DNA from: Thioalkalivibrio sp. K90mix | GTDB taxonomy: Bacteria; Pseudomonadota; Gammaproteobacteria; Ectothiorhodospirales; Ectothiorhodospiraceae | Length of the DNA stretch: 64,000 nt | Assembly (NCBI RefSeq): GCF_000025545.1 | Contig: NC_013889.1 | Location: forward strand, 2,473,501-2,537,500 | Direction of reading: 5' to 3' | Shown here: in pieces, positions 26,363 through 60,487 of the stretch | Numbering within the stretch: position 1 is the first letter of the stretch | How the letters are laid out: each line of letters starts with the position of its first letter | Translations under genes and position numbers: made by a program | The notes under the pieces: model-generated | Told to the model about the DNA's origin: nothing | The model's database searches: none | The model's input: the letters and a program-made list of their open reading frames with translations, nothing else

Positions 26363-26628
26363 GGAGACGCTGGTCTAATCGCACGTCCGCGTTGACACCC
26401 CAGGTTTTCCGAGACAAGGCGCGGTGCGCAGCCGGTAGTGGTTCTACCGGCAAGGGCCGCAACGCCGGATCGGGGAACCTGGGGTGCCAACCCCGAAGGG
26501 GCTCGGCCGCTTTTGCGCGAGAACGGCGTTGCGGTTCCTTTGTGCAGAATGACTGCACGGCAGTCACCGCGCCTTGTTCGCACGCAAAAGCGACTCGAGC
26601 GCGGACGCGCGATTAGACCAGCGTCTCC
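26363..26628. mobile_element. MITE-like palindromic element, copy 1 (266 bp)
   Basis: The ends are inverted repeats of 29 bp (GGAGACGCTGGTCTAATCG onward) with one mismatch. The element is flanked on both sides by CTAG (26359-26362 and 26629-26632), which looks like a 4-bp target duplication. Inside, ACAAGGCGCGGTG near the left pairs with CACCGCGCCTTGT near the right, and two smaller nested palindromes are present (ACCCCAGGTT/AACCTGGGGT and CTTTTGCGCG/CGCAAAAG). It encodes no transposase. A related copy lies at 60179-60487. The right CTAG supplies the TAG stop of rpmE. Confidence 0.7.
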
Positions 26629-26832
26629 CTAGAATGCGAAGCGGCGGTTGAACTTGTCGACCTGACCGGCGGTGTCAACGATCTTCTGCTTGCCGGTGTA
26701 GAACGGATGGCACTGCGAGCACACGTCCACGTGCATCTCGTCCTTCGAGAGAGTGGAACGGGTCTCGAACTGCGTGCCGCAGCTGCAGATGACCTTGACG
26801 TTGTGGTAGTTCGGATGAATGTCGGCTTTCAT
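26629..26832 (-). CDS. rpmE: 50S ribosomal protein L31 (zinc-binding form)
   Basis: This 67-residue ribosomal protein belongs to the cysteine-containing C+ type of L31. The zinc ligands are in VICSCGTQ and [13 protein letters not shown]. The start is the ATG at 26832. The stop TAG is part of the CTAG that borders the MITE-like element. A sigma-70-like promoter is placed at 26868-26897. No C-minus paralogue is in the window. Confidence 0.95.
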
Positions 26833-26867
26833 GGTCGGCTCACGCGTGTTCTGGCGAAAAGTGCGAT

Positions 26868-26897
26868 AGCATAGCCGCCTTCGCGGGGCTGTTGCAA
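26868..26897 (-). promoter_or_regulatory. Predicted sigma-70 promoter of rpmE
   Basis: On the minus strand TTGCAA and TATGCT are separated by 18 bases, about 36-65 bases upstream of the rpmE ATG. The rest of the 337-bp gap 26833-27169 holds the rimO upstream region and one isolated DnaA-box-like 9-mer; I see no other gene. Confidence 0.45.
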
Positions 26898-27169
26898 GGT
26901 CCCGCGTTAAGGCCGGGAGGCGGGGCCTGTGTACGCAAGCCCCTGAAGATAGCGCCCCTTCGAGGGATTCAAAGCGGCCTGTGGATAACCTTGTGGACGA
27001 ATTGTCAGCGACTGCCGCGCCCGGGACCAAGTGGGGCAGCGCAACCCGCCCCCGACCGACAACCCGAACACGCAACCCGTTCAATCAAAAGAACAATCCG
27101 GGAGAACACCGACTGGCGCACCAGGATCCGGGCGCGCCCGGAGCCGCTCCCAGAAGGCGAAAACGTACT

Positions 27170-28531
27170 GTGAATAAAAGCAACACCCCGTCTCCCGACA
27201 ACGTGCAGCGCGTGGGCTTTGTCAGCCTCGGCTGCCCAAAGGCCCTGGTCGACTCCGAGCAGATCCTGACGCGCCTGCGCGCCGAGGGTTACGAGATCGC
27301 CGCCGACTACGACGGCGCGGACCTGGTGGTGGTCAATACCTGCGGCTTTATCGACGATGCGGTGGCCGAATCCCTGGACGCGATCGGCGAGGCCATGGAT
27401 GCCAATGGCCGAGTCATCGTGACCGGCTGCCTGGGCAAGGACGCGGAGCGCATCCACGAGACCCACCCGGGCGTGCTCGCGGTCACCGGCCCGCATGCCT
27501 TTGATGAAGTCGTGGGCGCGGTGCACGAGCACCTGCCGCCGCCGGCGACTCCGTTCGAGTCGCTGGTGCCACCGCAAGGTATCCGCCTGACCCCGCGCCA
27601 CTATGCCTACCTGAAGATCTCCGAGGGCTGCAACCACCGTTGCAGCTTCTGCATCATCCCGAGCCTGCGCGGCGACCTGGTCAGCCGCCCGATCGGCGAG
27701 GTGCTGGCCGAGGCGGAGCGCCTGGCCGCGGCCGGCGTGCGCGAGATCCTGGTGATCTCGCAGGACACCTCGGCCTATGGCGTGGACGTGAAATACCGCA
27801 CCGGTTTCCATGGCGGACGCCCGATCCGCTCCGACATCGCCCACCTGGCCGAGGCACTGGGCCAGCTCGGCATCTGGGTGCGTCTGCACTACGTCTACCC
27901 CTACCCTCACGTGGATCGACTGATCCCTCTGATGGGCTCGGGCGAGGATGGCGGGATCCTGCCGTATCTGGACATGCCGCTGCAGCATGGCCACCCCCGG
28001 GTACTCAAGGCGATGCGCCGCCCGGCCGCCGCCGAGCGCGTGCTGGAACGCATTGCGAAGTGGCGCGAGCAAGTCCCCGACCTGACCCTGCGCTCGACGT
28101 TTATCGTGGGCTTTCCGGGGGAGACCGAGGCCGAGTTCGAGACGTTGCTGGAGTTTCTGCACGAGGCGCAGCTCGACCGCGTCGGCGCCTTCGCCTACTC
28201 GCCTGTGGAGGGTGCGGCCGCGAACGAACTGGCGGACCCGGTACCGGAGGCCGTGCGCGAAGAACGTCTGGCGCGCTTCATGGACGTGCAGGCCCGGATC
28301 AGCGCCGACCGGCTGCGCCGCCGGATCGGCAGCCAGCCGGTGGTGCTGGTCGACGAGGTGCACGCGGACGGGACCGTGATTGCCCGGTCCGCCGCGGAGG
28401 CTCCGGAGATCGACGGCGTAATCCGCGTGGCCGGGATCGACCCGACATCGGTGGATATCGGGGACTTCATCGAGGTCGCGATCACGGACACCGACGAGCA
28501 CGACCTGATCGCCGAACTGGCAGACGACTAA
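27170..28531 (+). CDS. rimO: Ribosomal protein S12 methylthiotransferase
   Basis: This radical-SAM enzyme adds a methylthio group to Asp89 of ribosomal protein S12. The 453-residue protein has the N-terminal MTTase domain with its three cluster cysteines ([25 protein letters not shown]), the radical-SAM motif [13 protein letters not shown] (C-x3-C-x2-C) and a C-terminal TRAM domain. The start is the GTG at 27170 in the context [20 protein letters not shown]; the ATG-like extension to 26981 is rich in Pro/Arg and unsupported. It is followed 27 bases later by purC. Confidence 0.93.
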
Positions 28532-28558
28532 CCACAAGCCGACCGAACGGAAGCACTG

Positions 28559-29455
28559 ATGAGCGACGCCCTGCTGGAAAGCCACATCCCCGATCTCGAC
28601 CTGGTCCATCGCGGCAAGGTGCGTGACCTGTACGCGGTCGATGCAGACCACTGGCTGATGGTCACCACCGACCGCCTGTCGGCCTTTGACGTGATCCTCC
28701 CGACCCCGATCCCGGGCAAGGGGTGCATGCTGACCGCGATTACCGAGTTCTGGATGCACAAGGTCGAACGCGAGCTGGGCATCCCCAACCAGCTGACCGG
28801 CATCCCGCTGGAGCAGGTGGTCCCCGACACGGCGATCCGGGCGCCACTGGAGGGGCGCAGCCTGGTGATTCGCCGGCTCGAGGCGCTGCCGGTGGAAGCG
28901 GTGGTGCGCGGCTACCTGATCGGGTCCGGCTGGAAAGACTACCAGGCCAGCGGCGCGGTCTGCGGCATCCCGCTCCCGCCCGGCCTGGAACTGGCCTCGA
29001 AGCTGCCGGAGGCGATCTTCACCCCCAGCACCAAGGCCGCGGTCGGCGATCACGACGCCAACATCGACTTCGCCACTGTGGTGGAGACGATCGGCGAGGA
29101 ACGGGCCCGACAGGTACGCGATGCCGCACTGGCGATCTACGCGATGGCGCGCGACTACGCGTCCGAGCGCGGGATCATCATCGCGGACACCAAGTTCGAA
29201 TTCGGTGTGGACGCGAACGGGACCCTGCACCTGATCGACGAGGTCCTCACCCCCGATTCCTCGCGCTTCTGGCCGGCCGATCAATACGCGCCGGGTCACA
29301 GCCCCGAGTCCTTCGACAAGCAGTACGTGCGCGACTATCTCGAGACCCTGGACTGGGACAAGACCGCCCCCGGACCCGAGCTGCCGACCGAGGTCGCGGA
29401 GCAAACGGCCGCGCGCTACCGCGAGGCCCTGGAACGCCTGACCCGCGACGCATGA
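28559..29455 (+). CDS. purC: SAICAR synthase
   Basis: This enzyme ligates aspartate to CAIR in purine synthesis, so it acts just after the PurK/PurE steps encoded at 13.9-15.6 kb. The 298-residue protein belongs to the longer, yeast/Bacteroides-like type and shows [46 protein letters not shown] and [21 protein letters not shown] site precedes the ATG. It overlaps bioD by four bases. Confidence 0.95.
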
Positions 29456-30168
29456 TCGGCGTGCCACAAGGCCTGTTCGTTACCGGGAGCGATACCGGGA
29501 TCGGCAAGACCTTTGTCGGCTGCGCCCTGCTGTCAGCATGGCGCGCCGAGGGCCTGGCCCCGCAGCCGCGCAAGCCGGTGGAATCGGGCTGCCCCGAGCG
29601 CGACGGCACGCTGTTCCCCGAGGATGGCGCCGCCCTGACGGCGGCGGCCGGCCTGCCCGCGACGGCCGTGGAGCAGGTGACACCCTGGCGGTTTCCCGAT
29701 GCGCTGGCGCCCGATCAGGCCGCCGCGCGCCAGGGTGTGCGGCTGACGGTTGCGCAACTGGCGCAGGCCTGCGAGACACCGGGTAACGCCCCCCGACTGG
29801 TGGAAGGCGCGGGCGGGTTCTATTCGCCGCTCTGCGGCGATGGCCTGAACGCCGACCTGGCGCAGGCCCTGGGCCTTCCGGTCCTGCTGGTCGCCGAGGA
29901 CCGGCTAGGGGTGCTGAACACCTGCCTGCTGACACTGGAGGCCCTGGAACGTCGTGGCCTGCAACTGGCCGGGATCGTGCTCAACCGGCGCCGCGCCGAT
30001 ACCGATGCCCTGCTGGACAACGCCGGGGCGCTGACCCGGTACACGGCCGCGCCGATCCTGTCGCTGCCGGAGGGGATAGCCCCACAGGACGCGACTCAGA
30101 AGCTCTCGATCTGGAAGTCGTCCTGGCGGATGCCGCCCTCGCCCGGCGTCACTTCGTCCAGGGTCTGA
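29452..30168 (+). CDS. bioD: Dethiobiotin synthetase
   Basis: This enzyme closes the ureido ring of dethiobiotin in biotin synthesis. The 238-residue protein has the P-loop [17 protein letters not shown], the KPVESG segment, [11 protein letters not shown] and a C-terminal LNRR region. The ATG shares ATGA with the purC stop. No other bio gene is near. The last 24 codons overlap the end of the convergent SYLF gene by 73 bp, and the tail after about residue 212 looks unlike the family, so the C-terminus may be a recent read-through extension. Confidence 0.9.
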
Positions 30169-30899
30169 TCCGGGCGCATGGCACCATTCCCGCTCTCCGG
30201 CTCGGCGGCCTCACCGGACTGACGGAACGAGGCCAGCAGATCACGCAGCTCGCGCGTCCCGGCGTGATCCACACGTCGGCTTTCGATGATGTGCACCGGC
30301 CGCTGCGCCTCGCCGTAGTACGCCTCGTTGAAGTCGTCGCGCACAGTCAGGCGCGAGCCGGACAGGCTCATCCCCAGGTAGGCCCCACGCGAGCGGGAAT
30401 AGGTCAGAAAGTCGGCCGTCGGGGTGGAGCCACGCCCGGCCCCGACCGGACCGGCGGCAACGGAGGCGTCGGCGCCGAGACGAATGGCGGAACCGAACAT
30501 CGAATCAACTGCATCCTGGGTACGTGCGACCATCACGACCTCGGCGGCATCCCCCCCGAACTGCATGCCAAAACTGATCGACCCCAGCGAATAGAAGGCA
30601 ACCGGTGAGTAGTCGCCCTTGTCCTCGTCCCAGGCGAGGAACACACCCATGCCCCCGGAGCCCCCGATCAGGAAGGCACCACGCCCGATACGCGGAAAGA
30701 TCACGACACCTCGAGCGGTACGCAGATCTTCCTGCAGGTGTTCATATTCGGGGTGCGTGGCCAGACGCTCCAGCGTGACCTTCGCCCGATCGACGATGTC
30801 CTGCGGGTCAACCTCGCGGCTGAACGGGTTGGCGTGGGCAGTGGCGGACAGCGCAGCCACCACCAGCGCGGTCAGGCAAAGATGGATCAGTCGCTGCAT
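30096..30899 (-). CDS. Exported SYLF-domain (YSC84-like) lipid-binding protein
   Basis: This 267-residue protein has a Sec signal peptide (cleavage after TAHA, residue 23) and a SYLF/Ysc84 domain (about 65-205) with RTARGVVIFPRIGRGAFLIG and YSLGSISFGMQFGGDAAEV. Eukaryotic SYLF domains bind phosphoinositides; bacterial ones are secreted or periplasmic with unknown roles. The C-terminal 50 residues are low-complexity and acidic, and their codons overlap the convergent bioD 3' end. It starts 91 bp from the fba stop, beyond a terminator. Confidence 0.8.
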   Translation of the reverse strand: MQRLIHLCLTALVVAALSATAHANPFSREVDPQDIVDRAKVTLERLATHPEYEHLQEDLRTARGVVIFPRIGRGAFLIGGSGGMGVFLAWDEDKGDYSPVAFYSLGSISFGMQFGGDAAEVVMVARTQDAVDSMFGSAIRLGADASVAAGPVGAGRGSTPTADFLTYSRSRGAYLGMSLSGSRLTVRDDFNEAYYGEAQRPVHIIESRRVDHAGTRELRDLLASFRQSGEAAEPESGNGAMRPDQTLDEVTPGEGGIRQDDFQIESF

Positions 30900-30940
30900 T
30901 GGATAAACGCTCCGGATTGATCGGAATTGGCGACATGATC

Positions 30941-30971
30941 GCATAAAAAAAGGGGGCCGAAGCCCCCTTTT
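30941..30971 (-). terminator. Intrinsic terminator after fba
   Basis: On the minus strand GGGGGC, a TTCG tetraloop and GCCCCC form a stem extended by A-T pairs and followed by a run of seven T. It is a textbook Rho-independent terminator ending the tkt-gap-pgk-pyk-fba cluster; the A-rich side could also act weakly on the plus strand. Confidence 0.92.
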
Positions 30972-30990
30972 CCGTGCTGCGATCCGCAGA

Positions 30991-32055
30991 TCAGTTGACC
31001 TTGGGATCCAGCTCGCCGCTCTTGTAGCGAGCGACCATGTCGTCCAGCGAGACCGGCTTGATCTTGGACGCCATGCCGGCGCAACCGAAGGCCTCAAAGC
31101 GGGCCTTGCAGATGTCCTTCATGGCCGCGGTGGAGGCCTTCAGGAACTTGCGGGGATCGAATTCCTTCGGGTTCTCCGCCAGGAACTTGCGCACCGCGCC
31201 GGTGGAGGCCATGCGCAGGTCGGTGTCGATATTGACCTTGCGCACGCCGTGCTTGATGCCTTCCTGGATCTCTTCAACCGGCACGCCATAGGTCTCGCCC
31301 ATGTCGCCACCGTAGTTGTTGATGATCTGCAGCCATTCCTGCGGCACCGAGGACGAACCGTGCATGACCAGATGGGTATCCGGAATGCGGTTGTGGATCT
31401 CCTTGATGCGCTCGATGGCGAGGATGTCCCCGGTCGGCGGACGGGTGAACTTGTAGGCGCCGTGCGAGGTACCGATGGCGATCGCCAGGGCGTCGCACTT
31501 GGTGTTCTTCACGAAGTCGGCCGCCTCGTCCGGATCGGTCAGCAGCTGGTCGTGGGACAGCTTGCCTTCGGCACCGGAACCGTCTTCCTCACCGGCCATG
31601 CCGGTTTCCAGCGAACCCAGGCAGCCCAGTTCGCCTTCCACGGACACGCCGCAGGAATGCGCCATCTCGGCGACCTTGGCGGTCACGTCACGGTTGTAGT
31701 CGTAGCTGGCCGGAGTCTTCATGTCGGGCATCAGCGAGCCGTCCATCATCACCGAGGTGAAGCCGGACTGGATCGAGCGCAGGCAGACCGCGGGCTCGGA
31801 GCCGTGGTCCTGGTGCAGGACGATCGGGATGTCCGGGTACTGCTCGGCGGCGGCCTCGATCATGCGACGCAGGAAGGGCTCGCCGGCGTACTTGCGCGCA
31901 CCGGCCGAGGCCTGAATGATCACTGGAGAGTCGACCTCGGCGGCCGCTTCCATGATCGAATGGATCTGTTCCATGTTGTTCGCGTTGTAGGCCGGCATGC
32001 CGTAGCCATGCTCGGCGGCATGGTCCAGCAGTTGGCGAAGGGAGATCAGTGCCAT
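30991..32055 (-). CDS. fba: Class II fructose-bisphosphate aldolase
   Basis: This zinc aldolase splits or makes fructose 1,6-bisphosphate. The 354-residue protein is the Calvin-cycle-associated (CbbA-like) type: [14 protein letters not shown], zinc His in [22 protein letters not shown], the zinc His in [10 protein letters not shown] and [19 protein letters not shown] precedes the ATG closely. It is the last gene of the carbon cluster and also can act on sedoheptulose bisphosphate in some autotrophs. Confidence 0.95.
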
Positions 32056-32124
32056 GGGTTCCTCCTTAACGGGATCGGACTGACGTAGTAAAAAATCTTG
32101 GGATTGTCAGGGGGCCGCGTCGGC

Positions 32125-33555
32125 TCACAGCTCGTCGCCAACGCGCACGATCTTCATGGCGTTGGTGCCGCCATGCTCGCCCTGCAAATCACCCTTGGTA
32201 ATGATAACCAGCCCGCCATCCTGCACGACGCCCTCGGCCCGGAGCAAGTTGACCGCCTCACGGTTCAGGCTCTCGTGGCTTTCGGGGATCGGTTCCAGGA
32301 TCCGGGGATATACCCCGCGATAGAGCGTCATACGGCGGCTGGTGGACTCGTGCTGGGTGAGCGCGTAGATCGGGATACCGGAGCTGATACGCGACATCCA
32401 CAGGGCCGTGGAACCGGATTCGGTCAGCGCAGCAATGGCCGCCACGTCCAGGTGATTGGCCGTGTACATCGTGGCCATCGCGATGGCCTCGTCCACGCGG
32501 CCAAAGGTCGAATCCATGCGGTGATCCGACTGGCGCGCGGCGCGCTGACGCTCGGCGGCCTCGCAAATCCGGTCCATGCTCTCGACCACGCGCGCCGGAT
32601 AGCGACCCGTCGCGGTCTCGCCGGAGAGCATCACCGCGTCCGTGCCGTCGAGCACCGCGTTGGCCACGTCGAAGACCTCGGCTCGCGTCGGGATGGGGTT
32701 CTGGATCATGGTCTCCATCATCTGGGTCGCCGTGATGACCAGACGATTGAGGGTGCGCGCCCGCGAGATCAGGGTCTTCTGCACGCCGGGCAGCTCGGCA
32801 TCACCGATCTCCACGCCGAGGTCCCCGCGCGCGATCATGATGACCTCGGAGGCGGCGATGATCTCGTCGATCACCTCCAGGGCCTCGGAACGCTCGATCT
32901 TCGCGCAGATACCGGCCTCCCAGCCGGCGTCCTTCAGCAGGCTGCGCGCCAGGTGCAGGTCCTGCGCGGAACGCGGGAAGGAGACGGCCAGGTAGTCCAC
33001 CTGCAGCTCGGCCGCCAGACGGATATCCTCGCGGTCCTTGTCGGTGATCGCGGGGGCGGACAGGCCGCCGCCCTGGCGGTTGATGCCCTTGTTGTTGGAC
33101 AGCTCGCCCCCGACCACGACGGTCGTCTCGATGCGCGCCCCGTTGACGGCGATCACCTTGAGCACAATGCGTCCGTCATCCAGCAGAAGGATGTCGTCGG
33201 GACGCACGTCCTGCGGCAGCTCCTTGTAGGTCAGCCCGACCTGGGTCCCATCCCCGGCGTCGCGATCCAGGTCCCCGTCCAGCGCGAAGGATGCGCCCTC
33301 CTGGAGCTGGACCCGGCCTTCGCGAAAGCGGTCGATGCGGATCTTCGGGCCCTGCAGATCGCCAAGCACCCCAACGCAGCGACCCGCCCGATCCGCCGCG
33401 GCGCGCAGGCGTGCGAGGCGGGCACGGTGGTCATCCGGGTCGCCATGCGAGAAGTTCAGCCGAACCACATCCACGCCGGCCCGGATGATGACCTCCATGG
33501 CCTCGTCGGTATCCGTGGCCGGCCCGAGGGTGGCCACGATCTTGGTACGTCTCAT
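32125..33555 (-). CDS. pyk: Pyruvate kinase
   Basis: This enzyme transfers phosphate from phosphoenolpyruvate to ADP. The 476-residue protein shows the N-terminal MRRTKIVATLGPATDTDEAM, the ADP/metal motif KIERSEALEVIDEIIAASE, MIARGDLGVEIG and TATQMMETMIQNPIPTRAE, plus DAVMLSGETATGRYP. An effector-binding C-domain is present. A 530-codon open frame on the opposite strand is its shadow. Confidence 0.96.
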   Translation of the reverse strand: MRRTKIVATLGPATDTDEAMEVIIRAGVDVVRLNFSHGDPDDHRARLARLRAAADRAGRCVGVLGDLQGPKIRIDRFREGRVQLQEGASFALDGDLDRDAGDGTQVGLTYKELPQDVRPDDILLLDDGRIVLKVIAVNGARIETTVVVGGELSNNKGINRQGGGLSAPAITDKDREDIRLAAELQVDYLAVSFPRSAQDLHLARSLLKDAGWEAGICAKIERSEALEVIDEIIAASEVIMIARGDLGVEIGDAELPGVQKTLISRARTLNRLVITATQMMETMIQNPIPTRAEVFDVANAVLDGTDAVMLSGETATGRYPARVVESMDRICEAAERQRAARQSDHRMDSTFGRVDEAIAMATMYTANHLDVAAIAALTESGSTALWMSRISSGIPIYALTQHESTSRRMTLYRGVYPRILEPIPESHESLNREAVNLLRAEGVVQDGGLVIITKGDLQGEHGGTNAMKIVRVGDEL

Positions 33556-33592
33556 CCGCGTCGCTCTCCGTCAGCGGAGAGCGCGCCGGGCA

Positions 33593-34771
33593 TCAGCCGC
33601 GGGCGCGCTCTTCCAGGATGGCGACGGCCGGCAGGGTCTTGCCTTCCAGGAACTCGAGGAAGGCACCACCACCGGTGGAGATGTAGCTGATGCGATCGGC
33701 CAGGTTGTACTTGTCGATCGCGGCCAGGGTGTCACCACCGCCGGCGATGGAGAACGCATTGCTCTCGGCAATGGCCTCGCCCAGGGCCTTGGTACCGGCG
33801 GCGAACTGGTCGAACTCGAACACGCCGACGGGGCCGTTCCAGACGATGGTGCCGGCGTTGCGCAGGGCCTCGGCGTAGGTCGCCGCGGTCTCGGGACCGA
33901 CGTCGAAGATCATGTCGTCATCGGCCACGGCATCGACCGACTTGGTCTCGGCCGGGGTCGACTCGGAGAATTCCTTGCCCACGGTCACGTCGGTCGGCAC
34001 CGGGATCTCGCCGCCCTTGGCGCGGGCCGCCTCCATCAGGCGCTTGGACTCGTCGACCAGGTCCGCCTCGTACAGCGATTTGCCAACACCGTGGCCCTGG
34101 GCCGCGATGAAGGTGTTGGCGATGCCGCCGCCGACGATCAGCTGATCCACTACGTTGGACAGCGACTCCAGCACGGTCAGCTTGGTCGAGACCTTGGAGC
34201 CGCCGACGATGGCCACCAGCGGGCGCTTCGGGGTCTCCAGGGCCTTGCCCAGGGCCTCCAGCTCCTTGGCCAGCAGCGGACCGGCGCAGGCCTGCGGGGC
34301 AAACTTCGCCACGCCGTGGGTCGAGGCCTGGGCGCGGTGGGCCGTACCGAAGGCATCCATCACGAACACGTCGCACAGGGCCGCGTACTTCTTCGCCAGC
34401 GCCTCGTCGTCCTTCTTCTCGCCCGCATTGAAGCGGACGTTTTCGAGCAGGATGACCTCGCCCGGCTTGGCGTCCACACCGTCGAGGTAGTCCCGTACCA
34501 GACGCACCTCGCGGCCCAGCAGACCGGCCATGTGCTCGGCGACCGGGGCCAGGGAATCCTCTTCGGAGAACTCGCCCTCGGTCGGGCGGCCGAGGTGCGA
34601 CATCAGCATCACCGCGGCGCCGGCGTCCAGCGCCTTCTGCACGGTCTCCAGGCTCGCACGGATACGCGCGTCGGAGGTGACCTTGCCGCCTTTCACCGGC
34701 ACGTTCAGGTCCTGGCGCACCAGCACACGGCGGCCATTCAGGTCGAGATCGGTCATCTTGATGACAGACAT
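33593..34771 (-). CDS. pgk: Phosphoglycerate kinase
   Basis: This 392-residue kinase exchanges phosphate between 1,3-bisphosphoglycerate and ADP. Motifs are [53 protein letters not shown] and the C-terminal [14 protein letters not shown]. The start is the ATG at 34771 with AGAGG upstream; the longer reading to 34870 crosses a hairpin and is rejected. Two hairpins in the gap behind gap (34813-34903) may lower its expression relative to gap. Confidence 0.96.
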
Positions 34772-34812
34772 GGGAGTACCTCTCGAAATTCGGTTGAAAA
34801 GAAAAAGGCTTC

Positions 34813-34838
34813 GGGCGAGCCCCGTTCGGGGCTCGCCC
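34813..34838 (-). terminator. Hairpin in the pgk leader
   Basis: A perfect 11-bp stem, GGGCGAGCCCC and GGGGCTCGCCC with a 4-base loop, lies 42 bases before the pgk ATG. On the minus strand it is followed by GAAGCCTTTTTC. It may be a terminator, an attenuator or an mRNA-stabilising hairpin between gap and pgk. Confidence 0.55.
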
Positions 34839-34875
34839 CAGGCCTCTGGTCCCCGGTCAACCCGGGACAAGGAAA

Positions 34876-34903: not shown

Positions 34904-34909
34904 CAGGCC

Positions 34910-37958
<3,049 letters not shown>

Positions 37959-39517: not shown

Positions 39518-39572
39518 CCCATCCGGCTGAGGAGCGCTGCAGCGGTTTAACCGTCAGGCTCAGCCGGATGTC
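39518..39572 (+). ncRNA. SAH riboswitch controlling ahcY
   Basis: The leader matches the S-adenosylhomocysteine riboswitch (ahcY motif). The outer helix pairs CATCCGGCTGAG with CTCAGCCGGATG; inside lies the invariant core GAGGAGCGCTGCA, then a CGG/CCG stem and TCAGGCTC. The family binds SAH tightly and rejects SAM, and normally switches genes on when SAH builds up. It ends about 51 bases before ahcY; downstream expression-platform bases are not included. Confidence 0.92.
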
Positions 39573-39623
39573 CCCCTGAAACGTGAACACGGCGCTCATC
39601 CAGATAACCGGAGAAGTTGATCC

Positions 39624-52287: not shown

Positions 52288-52480
52288 CCTGCTCCCCCTG
52301 AAGGCTCTCTGCGCCCCCGAATCTATCGGAAGCTCGAGCCCGTGACAAACAGCACACAATGATATTGCCTGCCCCCGCGAGCAGCGCAAGGAGTAGAAGC
52401 GGCCCTGCCTCGACGGGGATCCATGAGCGCCGCAATGACATGGCATACTCGAGCCACATTCTGACACTGCGGAACCGCTC

Positions 52481-53422
52481 GTGGCGCATGACATCGCTGT
52501 CCTGATGGACCCCATCGCCGGCATCAAGCCCTGGAAGGACACCACCTTCGCCATGCTGCTCGCCGCCCAGGCACGCGGGCACCGCCTGCACTACCTGGAA
52601 CCCGGCGATCTGTGGATCGAAGAAGGGCGCGCATATGTCCGCAGCCGCCCGGTGGCGGTGCGCGACCAGCGCGAGGACTACTACACCCTGGGGCCCGAGC
52701 AAGAAGGCGACGCCAGTCGCTTCGATCTCCTGCTGATGCGCAAGGACCCGCCGTTCGACCTCGAATACATCTACGCCACCTACGCCCTGGACCTGGCCGA
52801 GCGTGACGGCGTGCGGGTAGTCAATCGGCCCGGGGCCCTGCGCGATGTAAACGAGAAGGCCTTCGCCACGCATTTTGTCGACTGCGGGCCGCCGACCCTG
52901 ATCACCCGCGACCGCGCGCGCATCCGCGCCTTCCTCGATCACCACGGCGACATCGTGGTCAAACCACTGGACGGCATGGGCGGGGCCTCGGTATTCCGCA
53001 TCCGCGAGGGCGACCCCAACCTCTCGGTCATCCTCGAGACCATGACCGAATTCGATCGGCGCACCATTGTCGCCCAGCGCTTCCTGCCGGAATACACCGC
53101 CGGCGACAAGCGCATCATCCTGATCGGGGGCGAACCCTACGACTATGCACTGGCACGAATCCCGGCCGAGGGCGAGACCCGGGCCAACCTGGCCGCCGGC
53201 GGGCGCGGCGAGGCCGTACCCCTGACCGATCGCGACCGCTGGATCTGCGCGCAGATCGCCCCCGAGCTCAAGCGCCGAGGCCTGGATTTCGTCGGTATCG
53301 ACGTGATCGGCGACTACCTGACCGAGATCAACGTGACCAGCCCCACCGGCGTACGCGAACTCGATGCCGCCTGCGGCGACGACCTCGCCGGCCAGTTCAT
53401 CGACTACCTGACCCACCCCTGA
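52481..53422 (+). CDS. gshB: Glutathione synthetase
   Basis: This ATP-grasp ligase joins gamma-glutamylcysteine to glycine. The 313-residue protein has IAVLMDPIAGIKPWKDTTFA, VVNRPGALRDVNEK, VVKPLDGMGGASVFRI, DKRIILIGGEPYDYALARIP and EINVTSPTGVREL. The start is a GTG at 52481. gshB diverges from pilG exactly as in Pseudomonas (PA0407-PA0408). The 193-bp gap 52288-52480 should contain promoters for both genes; I could not assign them. Confidence 0.95.
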   Translation: MAHDIAVLMDPIAGIKPWKDTTFAMLLAAQARGHRLHYLEPGDLWIEEGRAYVRSRPVAVRDQREDYYTLGPEQEGDASRFDLLLMRKDPPFDLEYIYATYALDLAERDGVRVVNRPGALRDVNEKAFATHFVDCGPPTLITRDRARIRAFLDHHGDIVVKPLDGMGGASVFRIREGDPNLSVILETMTEFDRRTIVAQRFLPEYTAGDKRIILIGGEPYDYALARIPAEGETRANLAAGGRGEAVPLTDRDRWICAQIAPELKRRGLDFVGIDVIGDYLTEINVTSPTGVRELDAACGDDLAGQFIDYLTHP

Positions 53423-53440
53423 TCCCGCGAGGTGATGCCC

Positions 53441-54493
53441 ATGCCGATCCCGTTTCTGCGCGCCCGCCAGGCCCTCGTCGGACCGATTCTGCTCGCCGCG
53501 CTGGCCCTGGCCGGCTGCGACCGCGACACGCCCGACACCGTGACCCTGAATTTCTTCGCCTTTGGCACGATCGTGGACGTCACGCTCTACCCCGCCGGGG
53601 CCTACGACCTGGAGGCGCTGGAATCCGAGCTGCAGGCCGAACTGGAGATCCTGCATACCTCCTGGCATGCCTGGGAGCCCGGATCACTCGGGCGCACCAA
53701 TGAACTGCTGGCGCTTCGGGCCGAGTTCAGCGCCCCGCCCTCTGTCCTGCCACTGATTGAACGTGGCAAGGAAATGGAAGAGCTGAGCGACGGCCTGTTC
53801 AACCCGGCGCTGGGCAAGCTGATCGCCGCCTGGGGCTTTCATCAGGACGAGCCCGAGGGCCCGCCACCGGACGACGAAACCCTGGAGGCGCTGCTCGAAG
53901 ATCCGCCCAGCATGCGCGACGTCGAGCGCAATGGGGTACGTCTGCGCGGCCAGCACGCGGACCTGCAGCTGGATTTCGGGGGGCTCGCCAAGGGCCTCGC
54001 CGTCGAACGCATGCTCGACCTGCTGCAGGACCAGGGTGTGGAGGCCGCGATCTTCAACGCCGGTGGCGACCTGATGACCCTCGGGCGCCCCACGGATCGG
54101 GCCTGGCAGGTCGCGATCCGCCACCCGCAGGGTGGCATTCTCGGGAGTATCGAGCTTGATGCAGGCGAAGCACTGTTCAGCTCCGGCGACTACGAGCGCG
54201 GCTACGAATGGGACGGCGAACACATCCACCATGTAATCGACCCGCGCAGCGGACGCCCCAGTAGAGACGTTCACGGCGCGACCGTGCTGCACAGCGACCC
54301 TGCCCTGGCCGATGCCGCCGCGACCACGCTGATGATCGCCGGCCCCGAGGAATGGCCGCGCTATGCCCGCAAGATGGGTATCGAGGCCGCCCTGGTGGTG
54401 CTCGACGATCGCATCGAGGCAACCCCGGCGATGGTCGAACGGGTGCGCATGGAAGACAGCCAGCCCGCGCTCGAGGAGCGCGCTCTGCCGTGA
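53441..54493 (+). CDS. apbE: FAD:protein FMN transferase, lipoprotein
   Basis: ApbE attaches FMN through a phosphoester bond to Thr/Ser residues of redox proteins outside the cytoplasm. The 350-residue protein is a predicted lipoprotein (lipobox LALAGC, lipid Cys near residue 23 or so), followed by the ApbE fold: FAFGTIVDVTLY, DFGGLAKGLAVERML, IFNAGGDLMTLGRP, HHVIDPRSGRPS and ADAAATTLMIAG. The ATG at 53441 has GAGG eight bases upstream; GTG/ATG at 53432/53435 are too close to it. Typical clients (Rnf or Nqr) are not in the window. Confidence 0.9.
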   Translation: MPIPFLRARQALVGPILLAALALAGCDRDTPDTVTLNFFAFGTIVDVTLYPAGAYDLEALESELQAELEILHTSWHAWEPGSLGRTNELLALRAEFSAPPSVLPLIERGKEMEELSDGLFNPALGKLIAAWGFHQDEPEGPPPDDETLEALLEDPPSMRDVERNGVRLRGQHADLQLDFGGLAKGLAVERMLDLLQDQGVEAAIFNAGGDLMTLGRPTDRAWQVAIRHPQGGILGSIELDAGEALFSSGDYERGYEWDGEHIHHVIDPRSGRPSRDVHGATVLHSDPALADAAATTLMIAGPEEWPRYARKMGIEAALVVLDDRIEATPAMVERVRMEDSQPALEERALP

Positions 54494-54864
54494 CGTTTTC
54501 CCATCTGCGCTGGGGCGACGGGCTGATCGCCGCCCTGGCCAGCGCCACAGTGGTCGCGGCCTTTGTCCTTGCCTACCTGCCGGATACGGAGGCCTCCATG
54601 CTGGTCATCACCCAGACCGGCGAGCCGCCACGGCAGGAACCCCTGGACCGCACCCGCGAAATCGAGATCCACGGCCCGGCCGGCATCACCCGCGTGCAGA
54701 TCGAGCCGGGCAGGGCGCGCTGCGCCGAATCCCCCGGCACGCGCAACATCTGCGAGAACAGCGGCTGGCTGCAGCGCCACGGCGAGGTCGCGGTCAGCCT
54801 CCCCAACCGGCTGACCCTGCAGGTCCAGGGTCGCGGCCCCAGCCATGACAGCCTTCACTACTGA
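54490..54864 (+). CDS. NusG domain II-like membrane-anchored protein
   Basis: This 124-residue protein has one N-terminal membrane helix (about 11-32) and an extracytoplasmic beta domain of the NusG_II type (TREIEIHGPAGITRVQIEPG, RARCAESPGTRNICENSGW, VAVSLPNRLTLQV). Two Cys in CAESPGTRNIC are conserved-looking and could form a disulfide or bind a ligand. Proteins of this kind are repeatedly found with ApbE and Gx transporters. The GTG start shares GTGA with apbE, and the end overlaps the next gene by 20 bp. Confidence 0.75.
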   Translation: MTFSHLRWGDGLIAALASATVVAAFVLAYLPDTEASMLVITQTGEPPRQEPLDRTREIEIHGPAGITRVQIEPGRARCAESPGTRNICENSGWLQRHGEVAVSLPNRLTLQVQGRGPSHDSLHY

Positions 54865-55417
54865 GCCCGGCGTGACCATCTCCACCCCCGACACTTTGAC
54901 ACAACGCGACCGCACCATTGCCGCGCTGGCCGCCATCGCCATCGGTGTCCAGGTCCTGGAGGCGGCGATCCCGAGCCCGGTGCCTGGTATCAAGCCGGGG
55001 CTGGCGAACATCGTGACCCTGATCGCCCTGCTCACTCTGGGCTGGCGCGCGGCGGTCGCGGTCACCCTCATCCGGGTCGTCGGCGCCGCCCTGCTGCTCG
55101 GCACGCTGCTGAGCCCCGCCTTCTGGCTGTCGCTGGCCGGGGCCCTGGCCGCCCTGGCCGCGCTCGGTCTGCTGCGCCCACTGGCGCCACGCCATATCGG
55201 CGCGCTGGGCCTCGCCATCGCCGCCGCGATGGCGCACATCACCGGTCAGTTCCTGCTGGCCTGGGGCGTGATCATCCCGCACCCGAACCTGCCACTGGTG
55301 CTACCCCCACTATTGCTGGCCGCCCTGATTGCCGGCAGCGTGACCGGTATACTGGCCGCACACGTGCTCGCAGACCCCCGGATCCAGCGCCATGTCCGTC
55401 TCGCACGGCACCCTTGA
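54845..55417 (+). CDS. Gx transporter family membrane protein
   Basis: This 190-residue polytopic protein (five to six helices) belongs to the Gx transporter family, once called heptaprenyl diphosphate synthase component I. The typical stretch is SPVPGIKPGLANIVTLIALL. The family looks like an ECF S-component and is usually encoded with apbE and NusG_II, so it may move a flavin or related compound; this is inference. It overlaps the genes before and after it by 20 and 26 bp, giving very tight coupling. Confidence 0.78.
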   Translation: MTAFTTEPGVTISTPDTLTQRDRTIAALAAIAIGVQVLEAAIPSPVPGIKPGLANIVTLIALLTLGWRAAVAVTLIRVVGAALLLGTLLSPAFWLSLAGALAALAALGLLRPLAPRHIGALGLAIAAAMAHITGQFLLAWGVIIPHPNLPLVLPPLLLAALIAGSVTGILAAHVLADPRIQRHVRLARHP

Positions 55418-56324
55418 ACCCGAATCTCCGCAGCGTCGCGGCCAGCTGGGCCCGATGCTGTTTCTGGCCGTGGTCGCGCATGCCCTGATCATCCTCGGCA
55501 TCGGCTTCGCCGTTGACCCACTGGACACGCCTTCCCGCGAGCCCCTGGACGTGACCTGGGTGACCGACCCGGACGCACAGGAGCCAGAGCCGGAAGAGGT
55601 CGAGCGCATCGCCACCGAGGACCAGGCCGCCAGCGGCGAAGGCGAGGAGGTGCAGGAGGCGCTGTCGCCGGAGGCCGAGGCCGAAGGCATCGGCGAACCG
55701 GAGCCCGAGGGGGTCGAGGCCCCGCTGCCGGACGCGGGGCCGCTGGTCATGGAGCCCGCCCAGCCGGAACCCGAACCGGAGCCCGAGGCCGTGGAGGCCG
55801 AGACGGACGAAGCCGCGCCGACAGCCCCCGAAGTCGCCGAACCCGAACCGATCGAGTCCCCTCAGGCGGAGGAACGCCCGTCGGCCGCCGCGCTGATGAA
55901 CCGGGGCCTGGACACCGCGCGCGCGGCCCCGGCCGAGGAGCGCCGCGAATTCTCCACCCGCGCCACCCGCACCCGCTACCTCGACAGCCTCGCCGCGCGC
56001 AGCGCGCCGGAGGCCGCGTATCTGCAGGCCTGGATCAACAAGGTCGAGCGCGTCGGCAACCTGAACTACCCCGACGAGGCCCGCCGCCGGGGCCTGTCCG
56101 GCACACTGGTGCTGTCGGTGCGCCTGAACCCGGATGGCGAGCTGATGGATATCGAGATCGCCCGCAGTTCCGGCGAGCCGGTGCTGGACCAGGCCGCGAT
56201 GCGCATTGTGGAGCTGGCCGCCCCTTATGCCCCCTTCACCGAGCAGATGCGCGAGGAATATGACGAACTCGTGATCACCCGGACCTGGGCCTTCCGCCGC
56301 GACCAGATGGAGCAGATTCGGTAG
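55392..56324 (+). CDS. TonB-like energy transducer (TonB3-like)
   Basis: This 310-residue protein has an N-terminal membrane anchor (about 21-41), a long acidic Pro/Glu/Ala linker (about 55-160), and a TonB C-terminal domain (about 220-310) with YPDEARRRGLSGTLVLSVRL and GELMDIEIARSSG. In Pseudomonas the gene at this place (PA0406, tonB3) is needed for twitching motility. Its acidic EPEPE linker replaces the usual PK repeats. No exbB/exbD genes are nearby. Confidence 0.85.
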   Translation: MSVSHGTLEPESPQRRGQLGPMLFLAVVAHALIILGIGFAVDPLDTPSREPLDVTWVTDPDAQEPEPEEVERIATEDQAASGEGEEVQEALSPEAEAEGIGEPEPEGVEAPLPDAGPLVMEPAQPEPEPEPEAVEAETDEAAPTAPEVAEPEPIESPQAEERPSAAALMNRGLDTARAAPAEERREFSTRATRTRYLDSLAARSAPEAAYLQAWINKVERVGNLNYPDEARRRGLSGTLVLSVRLNPDGELMDIEIARSSGEPVLDQAAMRIVELAAPYAPFTEQMREEYDELVITRTWAFRRDQMEQIR

Positions 56325-56371
56325 GCCCCGGGTTCCTTGCGGCATAACGGAGCAGCGCCGATACTGAACAC

Positions 56372-56950
56372 ATGACGCAAGCCCCTTCCAGCTCGAGCGC
56401 GGCCAGCCTGCGCGATCACTTCCTGATCGCGATGCCGAGCCTGAACGATGGCTACTTCAGCCATGCGGTCACCTACATCTGCGACCACGACGCCGAAGGG
56501 GCCCTGGGGCTGGTCATCAACCAGCCCACCGAGTTGTCGCTGCGCGACCTGCTGCAGCACGTCGATCTCGAGCCTCGCGACGAGCTGCCGGAGATCCCGG
56601 TCTACCGGGGCGGCCCGGTCCAGCCCGAGCACGGCTTCGTGCTGCACACTGGAAAGCCCGAGTGGCGGGGCAGCCAGCCCATAACCGACTCCATCGTACT
56701 GACCACCTCGCGCGACATCCTGGAGGCCATCAACGAGGGCCGCGGCCCGCACCGCGTCCTCATCGCCCTGGGACACGCCGGCTGGGGGCCGGGGCAACTC
56801 GAGAGCGAACTGGCCGATAACGCCTGGCTGACCACCCGCGCCAATGCCGACATCCTGTTCGACCACCCCAGCGCCGAGCGCTGGGCCGGGGCGGCCAAGC
56901 TGATCGGCATCGACGTCAACCTGATCAGCTCCGCGCCCGGCCACGCCTGA
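56372..56950 (+). CDS. UPF0301/YqgE (AlgH) family protein
   Basis: This 192-residue cytoplasmic protein of the YqgE/AlgH family has the typical FLIAMPSLNDGYFSHAVTYI, GALGLVINQPTEL, YRGGPVQPEHGFVLH and LGHAGWGPGQLESEL. Its biochemical role is unknown; in Pseudomonas it was linked to alginate regulation. It almost always precedes ruvX, as here. Confidence 0.92.
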   Translation: MTQAPSSSSAASLRDHFLIAMPSLNDGYFSHAVTYICDHDAEGALGLVINQPTELSLRDLLQHVDLEPRDELPEIPVYRGGPVQPEHGFVLHTGKPEWRGSQPITDSIVLTTSRDILEAINEGRGPHRVLIALGHAGWGPGQLESELADNAWLTTRANADILFDHPSAERWAGAAKLIGIDVNLISSAPGHA

Positions 56951-56968
56951 GGCGGGCCCGGCAACGTC

Positions 56969-57361
56969 ATGGGGCTTCTGGCCTTCGACTACGGCCGCCG
57001 GCGGATCGGGATCGCAGTGGGCGAGGAACTGACCGGCGCGGCGCGCGGGCTGCGCACACTCAACACCGATTCACCGGAGCTGTGGCCCGTGATCGACAGG
57101 CTCGTAAGCGAGTGGGCGCCCGAGGGCTTTGTCGTCGGCTGGCCCACCCAGGCGGACGGCAAACCCACCCCGCTGGCGAAACGCATTCGCGCGTTCGGGG
57201 CCGCCCTCGAAGCGCGCTACAACCAACCGGTATACTGGTACGACGAGCATCTGACATCGCACCTGGCCCGCGAGCGCAGCGGGCGGGGACGCCACGACCC
57301 GGGGCTGGATGCCCACGCTGCCGCGGTCATCCTCGAAGGCTGGTTTCAGGAGAACGCATGA
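56969..57361 (+). CDS. ruvX: Putative pre-16S rRNA nuclease / Holliday junction resolvase YqgF
   Basis: This 130-residue RNase H-fold nuclease has [18 protein letters not shown] (first Asp), [13 protein letters not shown] and [13 protein letters not shown] with the further acidic residues. In E. coli YqgF it trims the 5' end of 16S rRNA, and Holliday-junction resolution was also proposed. It overlaps pyrR by four bases. Confidence 0.92.
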
Positions 57362-57882
57362 AGACGCCGGACGTCCCAACCCTGCTCGACCGCATGGCCG
57401 ACCAGACGCGCCAGTACCTGGCCAGGCACGACATCGACAACCCGATGGTGGTCGGCATCCACTCCGGTGGAGTCTGGATCGCCGAGCACCTGCGCGAGCG
57501 CCTCGGGGTGGAGAGGCCGCTGGGCAAGCTGGATATCAGCTTCTACCGCGACGACTTCTCGCGCATCGGCATGCATCCACAGGTCCGCCCGTCCGAGCTC
57601 CCGGAGGACCTGGACGGCGTGCATGTCCTGCTGGTGGACGATGTGCTCTACACCGGGCGCACGATCCGCGCCGCCCTGAACGAACTGTTCGACTACGGGC
57701 GCCCCGCCTCGGTCACCCTCGCCGTGCTGGTCGAGCGCGACGGGCGCGAACTGCCGATCGCCGCCGCGATCGTCGGGGAACACATGGAGCTCGGCACCCG
57801 CGAGCAGATCAAGCTGCGCGGCCCCGAACCCCTGCGCCTGGAGCGCGTCACCCTGGAGACCGATGGGGACGCCGACGCATGA
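57358..57882 (+). CDS. pyrR: PyrR-type uracil phosphoribosyltransferase / regulator
   Basis: This 174-residue PRTase has the PRPP loop [18 protein letters not shown], the flexible-loop region [14 protein letters not shown] and [15 protein letters not shown]. In Gram-positive bacteria PyrR binds pyr mRNA to cause attenuation; in gammaproteobacteria it may act mainly as an enzyme, and I see no PyrR-type anti-antiterminator near the pyr genes. ATGA overlaps join it to ruvX and pyrB. Confidence 0.9.
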
Positions 57883-58901
57883 GCGATACCGTGGACACCC
57901 CGGTCCTGGCCGGGGCCACCCGCCTGCCGGAACCGGGCCCGTTGCCCAATCACCTGCAGCTGACCGATGACGGCCAGCTGCGCCACCTGCTGACCATCGA
58001 GGGCCTCAACCGCGATCTCCTGAACGAGATCCTGGATACCGCCGAGTCGTTCGCGAACATGAACGAGAAGGCAGTGAAGAAGGTCCCGCTGCTGCGCGGC
58101 AAGACCATCGTCAATCTGTTCTTCGAGGCCAGCACCCGCACCCGCACCACCTTCGAACTGGCCGCCAAGCGCCTGTCCGCGGACGTACTCAACATCAACA
58201 TCAGCACTTCCTCGGCGGTCAAGGGCGAAAGCCTGCTGGATACCCTGCGCAACCTCGAGGCGATGAACGTGGACATGTTCGTGGTACGCCACGAGGAGAG
58301 CGGGACCGCGCATTTCATCGCCCGCCATGTCGCCCCCGGCATCAGCGTGCTGAACGCCGGCGACGGCCGCCACGCGCACCCCACCCAGGCGTTGCTGGAC
58401 ATGTTCACCATCCGCCGGCACAAGGGCGACTTCACCAAGCTGAAGGTCGCGATCGTGGGCGACATCCTGCACTCGCGCGTCGCGCGCTCGCAGATCCACG
58501 CGCTCAACATCCTGCAGACCGGCGAAGTACGTGTGGTCGCACCCTGTTCGCTGTTGCCGGCGAATGTCGACCAACTCGGCGTGCACGTCTACAACGACCT
58601 CGACGCCGGCCTGAAGGACGTCGACGTGATCATCATGCTGCGTCTGCAGCGCGAGCGCATGGAGCACGCCCATCTGCCCTCCGAGCACGAGTACTACCAG
58701 CTGTTCGGCCTGACCTCGCGCCGTCTGCAACTGGCGCACCCCACCTGCCTGGTGATGCACCCGGGCCCGGCGAATCGCGGCGTGGAGATCGAGTCCGCGG
58801 TGGCGGACGGGCCGCACTCGGTGATCCTGCAGCAGGTGACCTACGGCATCTCGGTCCGCCAGGCCGTGATGTCCATGGTGATGGGGGCGCATCAGTCGTG
58901 A
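57879..58901 (+). CDS. pyrB: Aspartate carbamoyltransferase catalytic chain
   Basis: This enzyme joins carbamoyl phosphate and aspartate in pyrimidine synthesis. The 340-residue protein is of the Pseudomonas class A type, with an N-terminal extension of about 35 residues. The carbamoyl phosphate loop is [16 protein letters not shown]; other motifs are [26 protein letters not shown] and [12 protein letters not shown]. Class A ATCases form a dodecamer with the inactive dihydroorotase-like PyrC', encoded immediately downstream (ATGA overlap). Confidence 0.96.
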
Positions 58902-60193
58902 GTGTACTGATCGAAAATGTACGAATCATCGATCCGGCGGACGACTACGACGCGGTCGGGGCGCTCTGCGTGCAGGGCGCCGAGATCCTGGCGCGGGGCC
59001 AGATACCGGACGGCTTCGAGCCACGCCGGCGCATTGATGGCAGCGGGCTGTGGGTGTTCCCCGGCCTGATCGACCTGTCCGCGCGTATGCGCGAGCCCGG
59101 CGAGGAGCACAAGGCCACCATCGCCAGCGAGACGCTGGCCGCTGCACGCGGGGGCATCACCAGCGTCGTGATTCCCCCGGATACCGATCCGCCAATCGAC
59201 TCCCCGGCCGAGATCGAACTGATTGCGCGCCGCGCACGGCAGGCCTGCGGCGTACGGGTCTATACGCTGGGCGCTCTGACACAACGTCTGGAGGGGCAGC
59301 AGCTGGCCGAGATGGCGGCGCTGCAGCAGGCGGGGGCCCGCGGTGTGAGCAATGCCCACAAGCCGCTGGCCAGCCTGCTGGTGCTGCGCCGAGCTCTGGA
59401 GTACGCGACCACCTTCGGCCTGACGATCGTGCTGCCCGCCCAGGACCTGTCGCTGACCGGCTCGGGCTGCATGCACGAGGGCGCCGTCTCCACACGCCTG
59501 GGCCTGTCCGGGATCCCGGAAGCCGCAGAGACCGCCGCGCTGGGCGCCATCCTGGCCCTGGTCGAACAGACCGGGGCGCGCGTGCATGTCGCGCGCCTGT
59601 CGACGCGCCGCGGGGCCGAGATGATCGCCAAGGCACGCGCCGAGGGACTGCCGATCACCGCCGACGTCGCTGCCCACCAGTTGTTCCTGACCGAGGTCGA
59701 TGTGGCCGAATACGACCCGAACGGCCATGTGATTCCGCCGCTGCGGGCCCAGCGCGACCGCGACGGTCTGCGCGCGGCCGTCGCGCGCGGCGAGATCAGC
59801 GCCATTTGCTCGGACCACCAGCCGCACGAGGCGGACGCCAAGCTGGGGCCGTTCGCCGGAACCGAACCGGGCATCTCGGCCCTGGAGACCCTGCTACCTC
59901 TGACCCTGCGCCTGGTCGAGGATGGCCTGCTGAGTCTGGGCGAGGCGCTGGCGCGCGTGACCTCCGGACCTGCCGAGATCCTGGACTTCGAACAGGGCCG
60001 ACTGGGCGCCGGCGCGCGGGCCGATTTCGTGCTGTACGATCCCACCGCGCTGCAGGAGATGCGCAAGCAGGACTGGCTGAGCACCGGGCGCAACTCGCCG
60101 TTTTTCGGCTGGACCTTCACCGGCCAGGTTCGCGAGACCTGGGTGGCGGGCCGCCCAGCCTGGACCCAGCCCACTGAGGGAAACACTGAATAA
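58898..60193 (+). CDS. pyrC': Inactive dihydroorotase homologue PyrC' (PyrX)
   Basis: This 431-residue amidohydrolase-fold protein is dihydroorotase-like but seems to lack catalysis: the zinc motif D-x-H-x-H is D59-L-S61-A-R63 in [14 protein letters not shown], so both His are gone. The MPNT-type motif is replaced by PPDTDPP. The later [15 protein letters not shown] segment is kept. In Pseudomonas such a protein has a structural role in the ATCase dodecamer, and an active pyrC lies elsewhere. Its last four codons and stop lie in the terminal arm of a MITE-like element. Confidence 0.88.
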
Positions 60194-60487
60194 TGTACAC
60201 GCTCGCGTTGGTACCCCAGGTTGTCCGAGACAAGGCGCGTCGTGCAGCGGGTAGTGGTTCTACCCGCCCGTTCTTGACTGGTTCGGGGCGCAACGCAGGA
60301 TCGGGGAACCTGGGGTACCAACCCCACAAGCCATTAAAGCAGGGGCTCGGCCGCCCGTTGTTATCAAGAACGGGCGCGCGCACGGCGTTGCGGCTCCCCC
60401 GTGCAGAGTCACTGCACGGCGGTCACCGCGCCTTGTTCGCACGCAAAAGCGACTCGAGCGCGAGCGTGTACATTATCCAGTGTTTCC
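60179..60487. mobile_element. MITE-like palindromic element, copy 2 (309 bp)
   Basis: The terminal arms are 29-bp inverted repeats (GGAAACACTGAATAATGTAC onward) with one mismatch. The body shares with copy 1 the ACCCCAGGTT/AACCTGGGGT pair, the GACAAGGCGCG/CGCGCCTTGTTC pair, the short GGTAGTGGTTCTACC palindrome and the CGCACGCAAAAGCGACTCGA block. It also has an extra CCCGTTCTTGA/TCAAGAACGGG pair. The flanks are CTGAG and CTAAG, a poor duplication. It lies between pyrC' and pyrK and fills the whole 307-bp gap apart from the pyrK ribosome region. Confidence 0.7.

Follow-up and report, generated by a model that had tools for sequence, protein, structure and literature searches.

Several described systems resemble, in part, the elements analysed in this study. 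The Correia repeat enclosed elements (CREE) of Neisseria are short, multi-copy miniature inverted-repeat transposable elements (MITEs) located near genes, and their inversion has been reported (PMC10969869). In yeast, template switching between the arms of inverted repeats (quasipalindrome correction) homogenises the arms and inverts the spacers; the process is described there for short arms and spacers in coding DNA, and short spacers, searched up to 70 bp, are favoured (PMC8604942). Repetitive extragenic palindromic (REP) sequences, REPIN, and BIME are multi-copy extragenic palindromes of 20–40 bp that end in GTAG and are associated with transposases of the IS200/IS605 type; GTAG repeats of this kind have been reported in Thioalkalivibrio sp. 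K90mix, and gene conversion has been suggested for such repeats, to judge from the title of a review cited there (PMC3733652). Here, we analysed a stretch of 64,000 nucleotides from the genome of Thioalkalivibrio sp. K90mix (NC_013889.1, positions 2,473,501 to 2,537,500; hereafter, the window), which contains two palindromic elements, copy 1 and copy 2. Both are members of a MITE family of Thioalkalivibrio, in which the two arms of a copy change together. Unlike CREE, this family has IS5-type ends, a YTAR target, exchange of interior modules, and a measured coupling of arms, and unlike the yeast repeats, it has 28-bp arms with >200 bp between them. CREE are the nearest precedent for inversion and template switching the nearest for mechanism.

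The K90mix genome (2.99 Mb, two contigs) contains 65 unique matches to the family, 52 of which are near full length. Of 24 other congeneric genomes, 12 also contained matches, and of 15 more distant genomes, 1 yielded a weak match (best E-value, 1.8e-5). A pattern scan of species genomes identified at least 120 stretches, and among the 80 titles listed, 78 were Thioalkalivibrio; the stretches in Sphingopyxis and Microscilla contained no full copy by BLAST, and none of the virus contigs carried the pattern of the H1 hairpin described below. The loci collected comprise 202 unique full copies, i.e. 52 from the K90mix genome, 61 from other genomes, 58 from records named Thioalkalivibrio, and 31 from further rows of the pattern scan. 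Partial copies were left out, which removed 35 matches from this set and reduced the K90mix matches from 65 to 52. The elements are short, dispersed, and multi-copy, have terminal inverted repeats of 28–29 bp, and duplicate their target, in agreement with a preliminary description of the two window palindromes as MITE-like. Its statement that no transposase is encoded also holds, since our own open reading frame (ORF) scorer predicted no gene wholly within any of the 52 K90mix copies. With lengths of 247–343 bp and GGRARACRC ends, the family does not consist of the GTAG-ended palindromes of 20–40 bp that define REP and REPIN.

The YTAR motif is present at the left side of 133, the right side of 131, and at least one side of 171 of the 202 copies. 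When related copies were thinned to one per site (108 independent sites for arm type A and 57 for type B, see below), YTAR was present and identical on both sides at 27 of the A and 37 of the B sites; the target duplications have often decayed. The site of copy 1 is empty in genomes G041 and G021, where a single TTAG is found, and the target is therefore the 4-bp YTAR. No study on a Thioalkalivibrio MITE was found in the accessible parts of the open-licence literature. The family is ordinary in kind (an IS5-type MITE); what sets it apart is the clarity with which it displays arms that change together, copies inverted at sites shared between genomes, and a dependence of gene context on the arm type.

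Two arm families were distinguished, A (GGAAACACTGATYAATGTACACRCTCGCG) and B (GGAGACGCTGATTNAATCGCRCGTCCGCG). Both arms are of type A in 138 copies and of type B in 63, and the single mixed copy was excluded from the arm statistics. The mean number of mismatches between the arms of a copy was smaller than that between shuffled arms, both in all copies (1.70 vs 3.98 in A and 1.14 vs 2.28 in B) and at independent sites (A, 1.66 vs 4.01, minimum of 2,000 shuffles 3.67; B, 1.19 vs 2.34, minimum 2.02). In A arms, matching is tighter over the outer 20 positions (ratio to shuffled, 0.29) than over the nine inner ones (0.73). At the 108 independent A sites, the mean r2 between partner bases was 0.43 over nine testable positions (0.61, 0.49, 0.35, 0.57, 0.74, 0.57, and 0.45 at positions 3, 11, 12, 13, 14, 18, and 19, respectively; positions 21 and 23 are barely coupled, at 0.02 and 0.08), whereas the mean for non-partner pairs was 0.011 (102 same-arm and 99 cross-arm pairs; cross-arm maximum, 0.20). 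Partner bases are thus roughly forty times more strongly correlated than other arm bases across independent insertions, and the family offers a natural setting in which to test how the two halves of inverted repeats stay alike. One further locus (L110:3017-3062) is an arm-only palindrome that has B-type arm ends and lacks nearly the whole interior.

Descent from parents whose subfamily arms were already matched would explain 8 of the 12 arm differences between the two window copies, and most changes after insertion are one-sided, which fits such descent. Descent would not, however, link partners alone, as is seen within family A; neighbouring arm positions are nearly unlinked, and block ancestry of the arms therefore fails as the cause of partner coupling. 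The coupling at the 108 A sites led us to reject ancestry as the only reason for matched arms, and we regard this explanation as very unlikely.

In the window, copy 1 has B arms and copy 2 has A arms. The features of both copies are as follows (window coordinates; a dot denotes no strand).

26359..26362 (.): CTAG, target copy to the left of copy 1; in G041 and G021, the empty site has one TTAG
26363..26628 (+): copy 1, complete element of 266 bp with B-type arms and a CCAGG-type P2 stem; ortholog in G001 99.6% identical
26363..26391 (+): left arm of copy 1 (terminal inverted repeat, 5' strand of P1)
26391..26412 (+): 5' strand of the P2 stem of copy 1; covarying pairs 35-123, 40-118, and 41-117
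26431..26451 (+): H1 hairpin of copy 1 with the GGTAGTGGTTCTACC block; pair 71-87 covaries
26470..26491 (+): 3' strand of the P2 stem of copy 1
26501..26600 (+): domain 2 hairpin of copy 1; the module here, TTTTGCGC or one beginning CCCGTTGTTATC, varies among copies
26600..26628 (+): right arm of copy 1 (3' strand of P1)
26629..26632 (.): right target copy CTAG of copy 1; contains the TAG stop of a minus-strand ORF ending at 26629
60175..60178 (.): left target-side sequence of copy 2, TGAG (not YTAR)
60179..60487 (+): copy 2, complete element of 309 bp with A-type arms and long modules
60179..60207 (+): left arm of copy 2, 15 bases into which the gene predicted upstream ends at TAA
60459..60487 (+): right arm of copy 2
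60488..60491 (.): right target-side sequence of copy 2, CTAA

The ORF that ends in the right CTAG of copy 1 presumably encodes a ribosomal protein L31-like product. The coordinates and counts of the preliminary description proved exact, and the internal blocks are shared by the two copies in the same order. The arms pair as inverted repeats at 28 of 29 positions in each copy, with the single mismatch at arm position 21 in copy 1 and at position 11 in copy 2, and the left arms of the two copies agree at 17 of 29 positions. Eight of the 12 differences (positions 4, 7, 16–19, 24, and 25) are near-fixed differences between the A and B subfamilies, and only positions 11–14 differ at the level of the copy. 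The proposal that the arms change together is borne out by the family-wide coupling; two copies alone cannot show it, since the window holds one A and one B member. Identical arms across copies with random, unpaired differences, which had been named as the contrary outcome, were not seen in the other copies. A repeat search yielded complementarity of 95% over 39 nt in copy 1 and 94% over 34 nt in copy 2, the excess over the 29-nt arms being adjoining flank, including the CTAG on both sides of copy 1. The palindromes are not due to chance, as indicated by fold z-scores of −13.9 and −11.5 for copies 1 and 2 (vs 200 and 100 dinucleotide shuffles, respectively) and by the number of near full-length copies in the genome.

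Changes after insertion were examined in 28 ortholog groups (36 comparisons, or 35 without the A/B swap L141/L030; a doubtful ortholog, L269, was kept in the arm counts). Among 39 changed arm pairs, 7 were altered on both sides, compared with 0–2 in six slid controls, and 6 of these 7 keep Watson–Crick pairs. The other 32 were altered on one side only, which contradicts the premise of the preliminary description that the break-up of pairing by drift is not seen: drift breaks arm pairs, and it is only on a longer time scale that matching is maintained or re-established. At the site of copy 2, for example, the right arm in G001 differs at three positions from those of the four other genomes that carry the element; two of these changes bring it closer to the family consensus, and its pairing with its own left arm is poorer.

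When left flanks were compared with reversed right flanks, seven pairs of loci matched at both flanks. In four of these (L127/L020, L140/L067, L007/L146, and L052/L089), the target is the same and the element is reversed, i.e. both orientations are found at one site between species. Three of the four are G000–G001 pairs, and these two genomes share 20 sites with elements in the same orientation. The remaining pairs, L239/L069, L008/L258, and L233/L045, were dropped, their targets not being the same. The interiors of L127/L020, compared in the element's own frame, are 97.1% identical, whereas the best of 40 random other copies reached 92.8%, and this pair clearly represents the same interior flipped. 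The same applies, narrowly, to L007/L146 (97.7 vs 96.8%), and the interior of L140/L067 looks both flipped and replaced (89.9 vs 95.2%); the values for L052/L089 were 96.2 and 96.6%. The L020 site lies near a tRNA-Arg gene and has the same target in three genomes, with one orientation in G001 and G041 and the other in G000. Flank identities (96 vs 92%) suggest that G001 is the closer relative, in which case the flip occurred on the G000 branch. Our search of the open-licence literature found no study on an invertible MITE; the inversion of CREE is reportedly described in Elbeyioglu 2017.

Arm matching and inversions could both arise by repeated transposase-mediated excision and re-insertion at the same YTAR, the arms being rebuilt in transposition. 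YTAR is near-palindromic and would permit either orientation, and the three dropped pairs look like separate nearby insertions or nested events. At the L020 site, however, both orthologs have AACGTAC or a close form in their arms, and the interior is closer to that of its inverted ortholog than to the best other copy; we therefore give re-insertion little credence. Misassembly of drafts could also produce both inversions and block swaps, because the assemblies of most relatives are split into several to hundreds of contigs and carry tens of similar copies each. Against this, the inverted copies differ right beside unique flank on both sides, G001 and G041 agree against G000, unique flank is no more than about 50 bp away from some of the block differences, and the coupling result requires only the arms beside the flanks. 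An assembly artefact is thus the most improbable of the explanations considered.

The interiors of orthologous elements also differ. At 20 orthologous sites of G000 and G001 (21 flank pairs less L060/L130, the flank matches of which extended over only 64 and 53 bp), the flanks differ by a median of 3.4% and the elements by 0 to 17.4%, the element being more divergent than its flanks at 11 sites. The differences often take the form of blocks, e.g. AAGC / CCGTTCTTGACTGGTTCGG, TTTTGCGC / CCCGTTGTTATCAAGAACGGGC, and CTTGTTCG / ATTAAACG. An exact copy elsewhere in the same genome, including 10 bases of context, was found for 25 (G000) and 22 (G001) of 53 multi-column blocks. Among the 138 A copies (orthologs included), linkage between unpaired columns is 0.243 at distances of up to 5 columns and falls to 0.016 at distances above 150, and four gametes are present in 86–89% of column pairs >60 columns apart. 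At L030/L141, which was kept outside the main counts of ortholog changes, the whole element including the arms differs (B vs A), and a leftover B end adjoins it.

With moderate confidence, we favour the following account of these observations. The arms are the terminal inverted repeats of a non-autonomous IS5-type MITE, which would be moved in trans by an IS5 transposase. Exchange between the arms, by template switching or recombination and probably with one end recopied from the other, would keep the arms of each copy matched while copies diverge and would occasionally flip the interior in place. Separately, gene conversion would probably be the route by which interior modules are swapped among dispersed copies. 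The arms themselves have split into the families A and B. We infer both the arm-exchange mechanism and the gene-conversion route from sequence comparisons, and the inverted elements at shared sites suggest that exchange between arms does happen. Of the two causes put forward in the preliminary description, selection for a hairpin and arm homogenisation during transposition, homogenisation fits better, and it is placed probably outside transposition because of the in-place inversions at conserved sites.

Several points weigh against this account. The predominance of one-sided arm changes means that exchange between arms must be rare, and the two-sided cases include two that are one event seen twice and two from the doubtful L269, leaving about four that are independent. 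In B arms, the contrast between outer and inner positions is small (ratios to shuffled, 0.47 and 0.56), a clearly greater similarity of the interior to the ortholog than to other copies is seen in just one of the four inversions, and 28 (G000) and 31 (G001) of the 53 blocks have no exact donor in the 10-base context. Template switching favours short spacers, and with a spacer of >200 bp the arms would need to be brought close to each other by folding of the interior. The relatives are mostly drafts, in which a 50-copy repeat may be misassembled inside. Finally, the P2 and H1 helices covary as well, which is also predicted by selection for a hairpin.

Selection of that kind, acting on a structured RNA or a DNA cruciform and retaining compensatory changes in the arms, P2, and H1 for the sake of pairing, is possible, although we consider it doubtful. 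In the consensus fold, the arms form P1, and the interior comprises the P2-H1 hairpin domain, domain 2, and a small CCC/GGG hairpin, with 107 predicted pairs on the plus strand and 106 on the minus strand. Eight of the ten top column pairs after average product correction are pairs of this fold, located in P1 and H1, P2 pairs ranking lower; the other two (116-139 and 99-139) lie outside the fold. Conservation is as high in unpaired columns (0.915) as in paired columns (0.910), A–C combinations outnumber G–U at arm positions 21 and 23 (66 vs 12), corresponding to wobble pairs in a minus-strand RNA, and the skewed direction of A copies (65:13, see below) suggests a strand-specific effect; all of these would fit selection for a hairpin. 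On the other hand, no wobble asymmetry was detected in the interior (146 G–U and 146 A–C) or in arms without positions 21 and 23 (39 and 57), and the consensus energies are nearly equal on the two strands (−256.6 and −259.8). Two-sided changes of interior pairs at orthologous sites give a weak signal (12 vs 2–7 in slid controls, with 122 one-sided), and one mismatch should hardly matter in a 28-bp stem, yet the variable arm positions 13 and 14 stay matched. Covarying helices, as expected of a structured RNA, are present, but arm-to-arm templating would give covariation too, and the structure and strand tests neither require nor exclude an RNA. Rfam yielded no family over either window copy and nothing above the gathering score at three loci searched at E up to 5. 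A promoter scan found no sigma-70 consensus promoter in copy 1 or copy 2, and a terminator scan found one weak terminator-like site in copy 1 (26516-26533, plus strand; shuffles, mean 0.3, sd 0.5) and none in copy 2.

The gene context was analysed at 156 independent sites for which flanks of 500 bp were available on both sides (46 of the 202 copies, orthologs or copies with short flanks, were omitted). According to our own codon scorer, for which 2,459 codons served as the training set, none of these sites was spanned by a gene. Between co-directional genes, 77 elements lie in the plus sense and 22 in the minus sense. A copies run along the direction of the neighbouring genes (65:13, p 1.8e-9), whereas B copies exhibit no skew (12:9, p 0.66) and lie between convergent genes at 22 of 51 sites, an arrangement found at 12.6% of 637 element-free junctions from the window and the pattern-scan loci. 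The two contexts differ (chi-square 35.3, p 1e-7), and with A copies following transcription and B copies at convergent ends, a strand-specific effect on operons becomes testable; because the arms are palindromic, such an effect would be expected to come from the interior. Among the likelihoods for A copies, dependence on the right-hand gene (−109.0) was favoured over the left-hand gene (−118.2) and neither (−127.8); with YTAR sites as the baseline, the advantage of the right-hand gene was small (−123.5 vs −125.6). An element is faced by 159 gene 3' ends, and 77 of these reach into it or stop at most 5 bp away, which would be expected of a target that contains TAA or TAG.

For 24 A copies in the K90mix genome, the genes to the right were judged by eye and are presumably diverse housekeeping genes; a single class of downstream gene was accordingly rejected. 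It is conceivable, although unlikely, that A-arm copies are genus-wide invertible 5'-leaders, i.e. strand-specific structured RNAs between a stop and the next start that flip in place to switch the downstream housekeeping gene, the flipping also keeping the arms matched. At another locus, two copies (L043 and L044; G000 C1 1952344 and 1953604) bracket one gene, all in the same direction; we take this gene to be minC-like and the one right after L044 to be minD-like.

An insertion sequence (IS) sharing the outer ends of the MITE, as the preliminary description had suggested looking for, is resident in the genome. A 1.2-kb IS in L102, L106, and L107 has the ends GGAAACGCTGATCAATG and GGAAACACTGATTTATT; the adjoining flanks are CTAG at two of these loci (L102 and L106) and GTAG at the third (L107). 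It encodes a 321-aa transposase of the IS5 family (Pfam DDE_Tnp_1; 319 bits with NF033581, cut-off 140). The IS5_4 transposase is present in three copies in the genome, and all three carry the IS5 end GGAAACRCTGAT. The GGRARACRCTGAT-like arm ends and the YTAR target of the MITE resemble those of the 1.2-kb IS; the outer 12–17 bp of the arms are common to both elements, and beyond about this length they differ. The MITE thus shares the outer end and the target type with the IS5 family (NCBIfam NF033581) but lacks a transposase, and it is probably mobilised in trans by the resident IS5 transposase, judging from these end sequences. In L102:515-2028, the IS5 copy adjoins a MITE copy, with one CTAG common to both.

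Copy 2 lies between two co-directional predicted genes. Its site was located in 27 of 30 genomes of the genus, 5 of which carry the element (G000, G041, G001, G021, and G005); 25 of the 27 sites were read directly, and L316 and L317 were scored as empty because they fall outside the copy-2 ortholog group. At empty sites, the flanking genes overlap as ATGA by eye. The empty sites in G042 and G004 (L297 and L298) carry a 12-base insert that starts with GGAAAC and resembles an element end; this is perhaps a remnant of excision or deletion. Elsewhere in the window, an S-adenosylhomocysteine (SAH) riboswitch was identified at 39523-39604 on the plus strand (56.3 bits; gathering score, 37).

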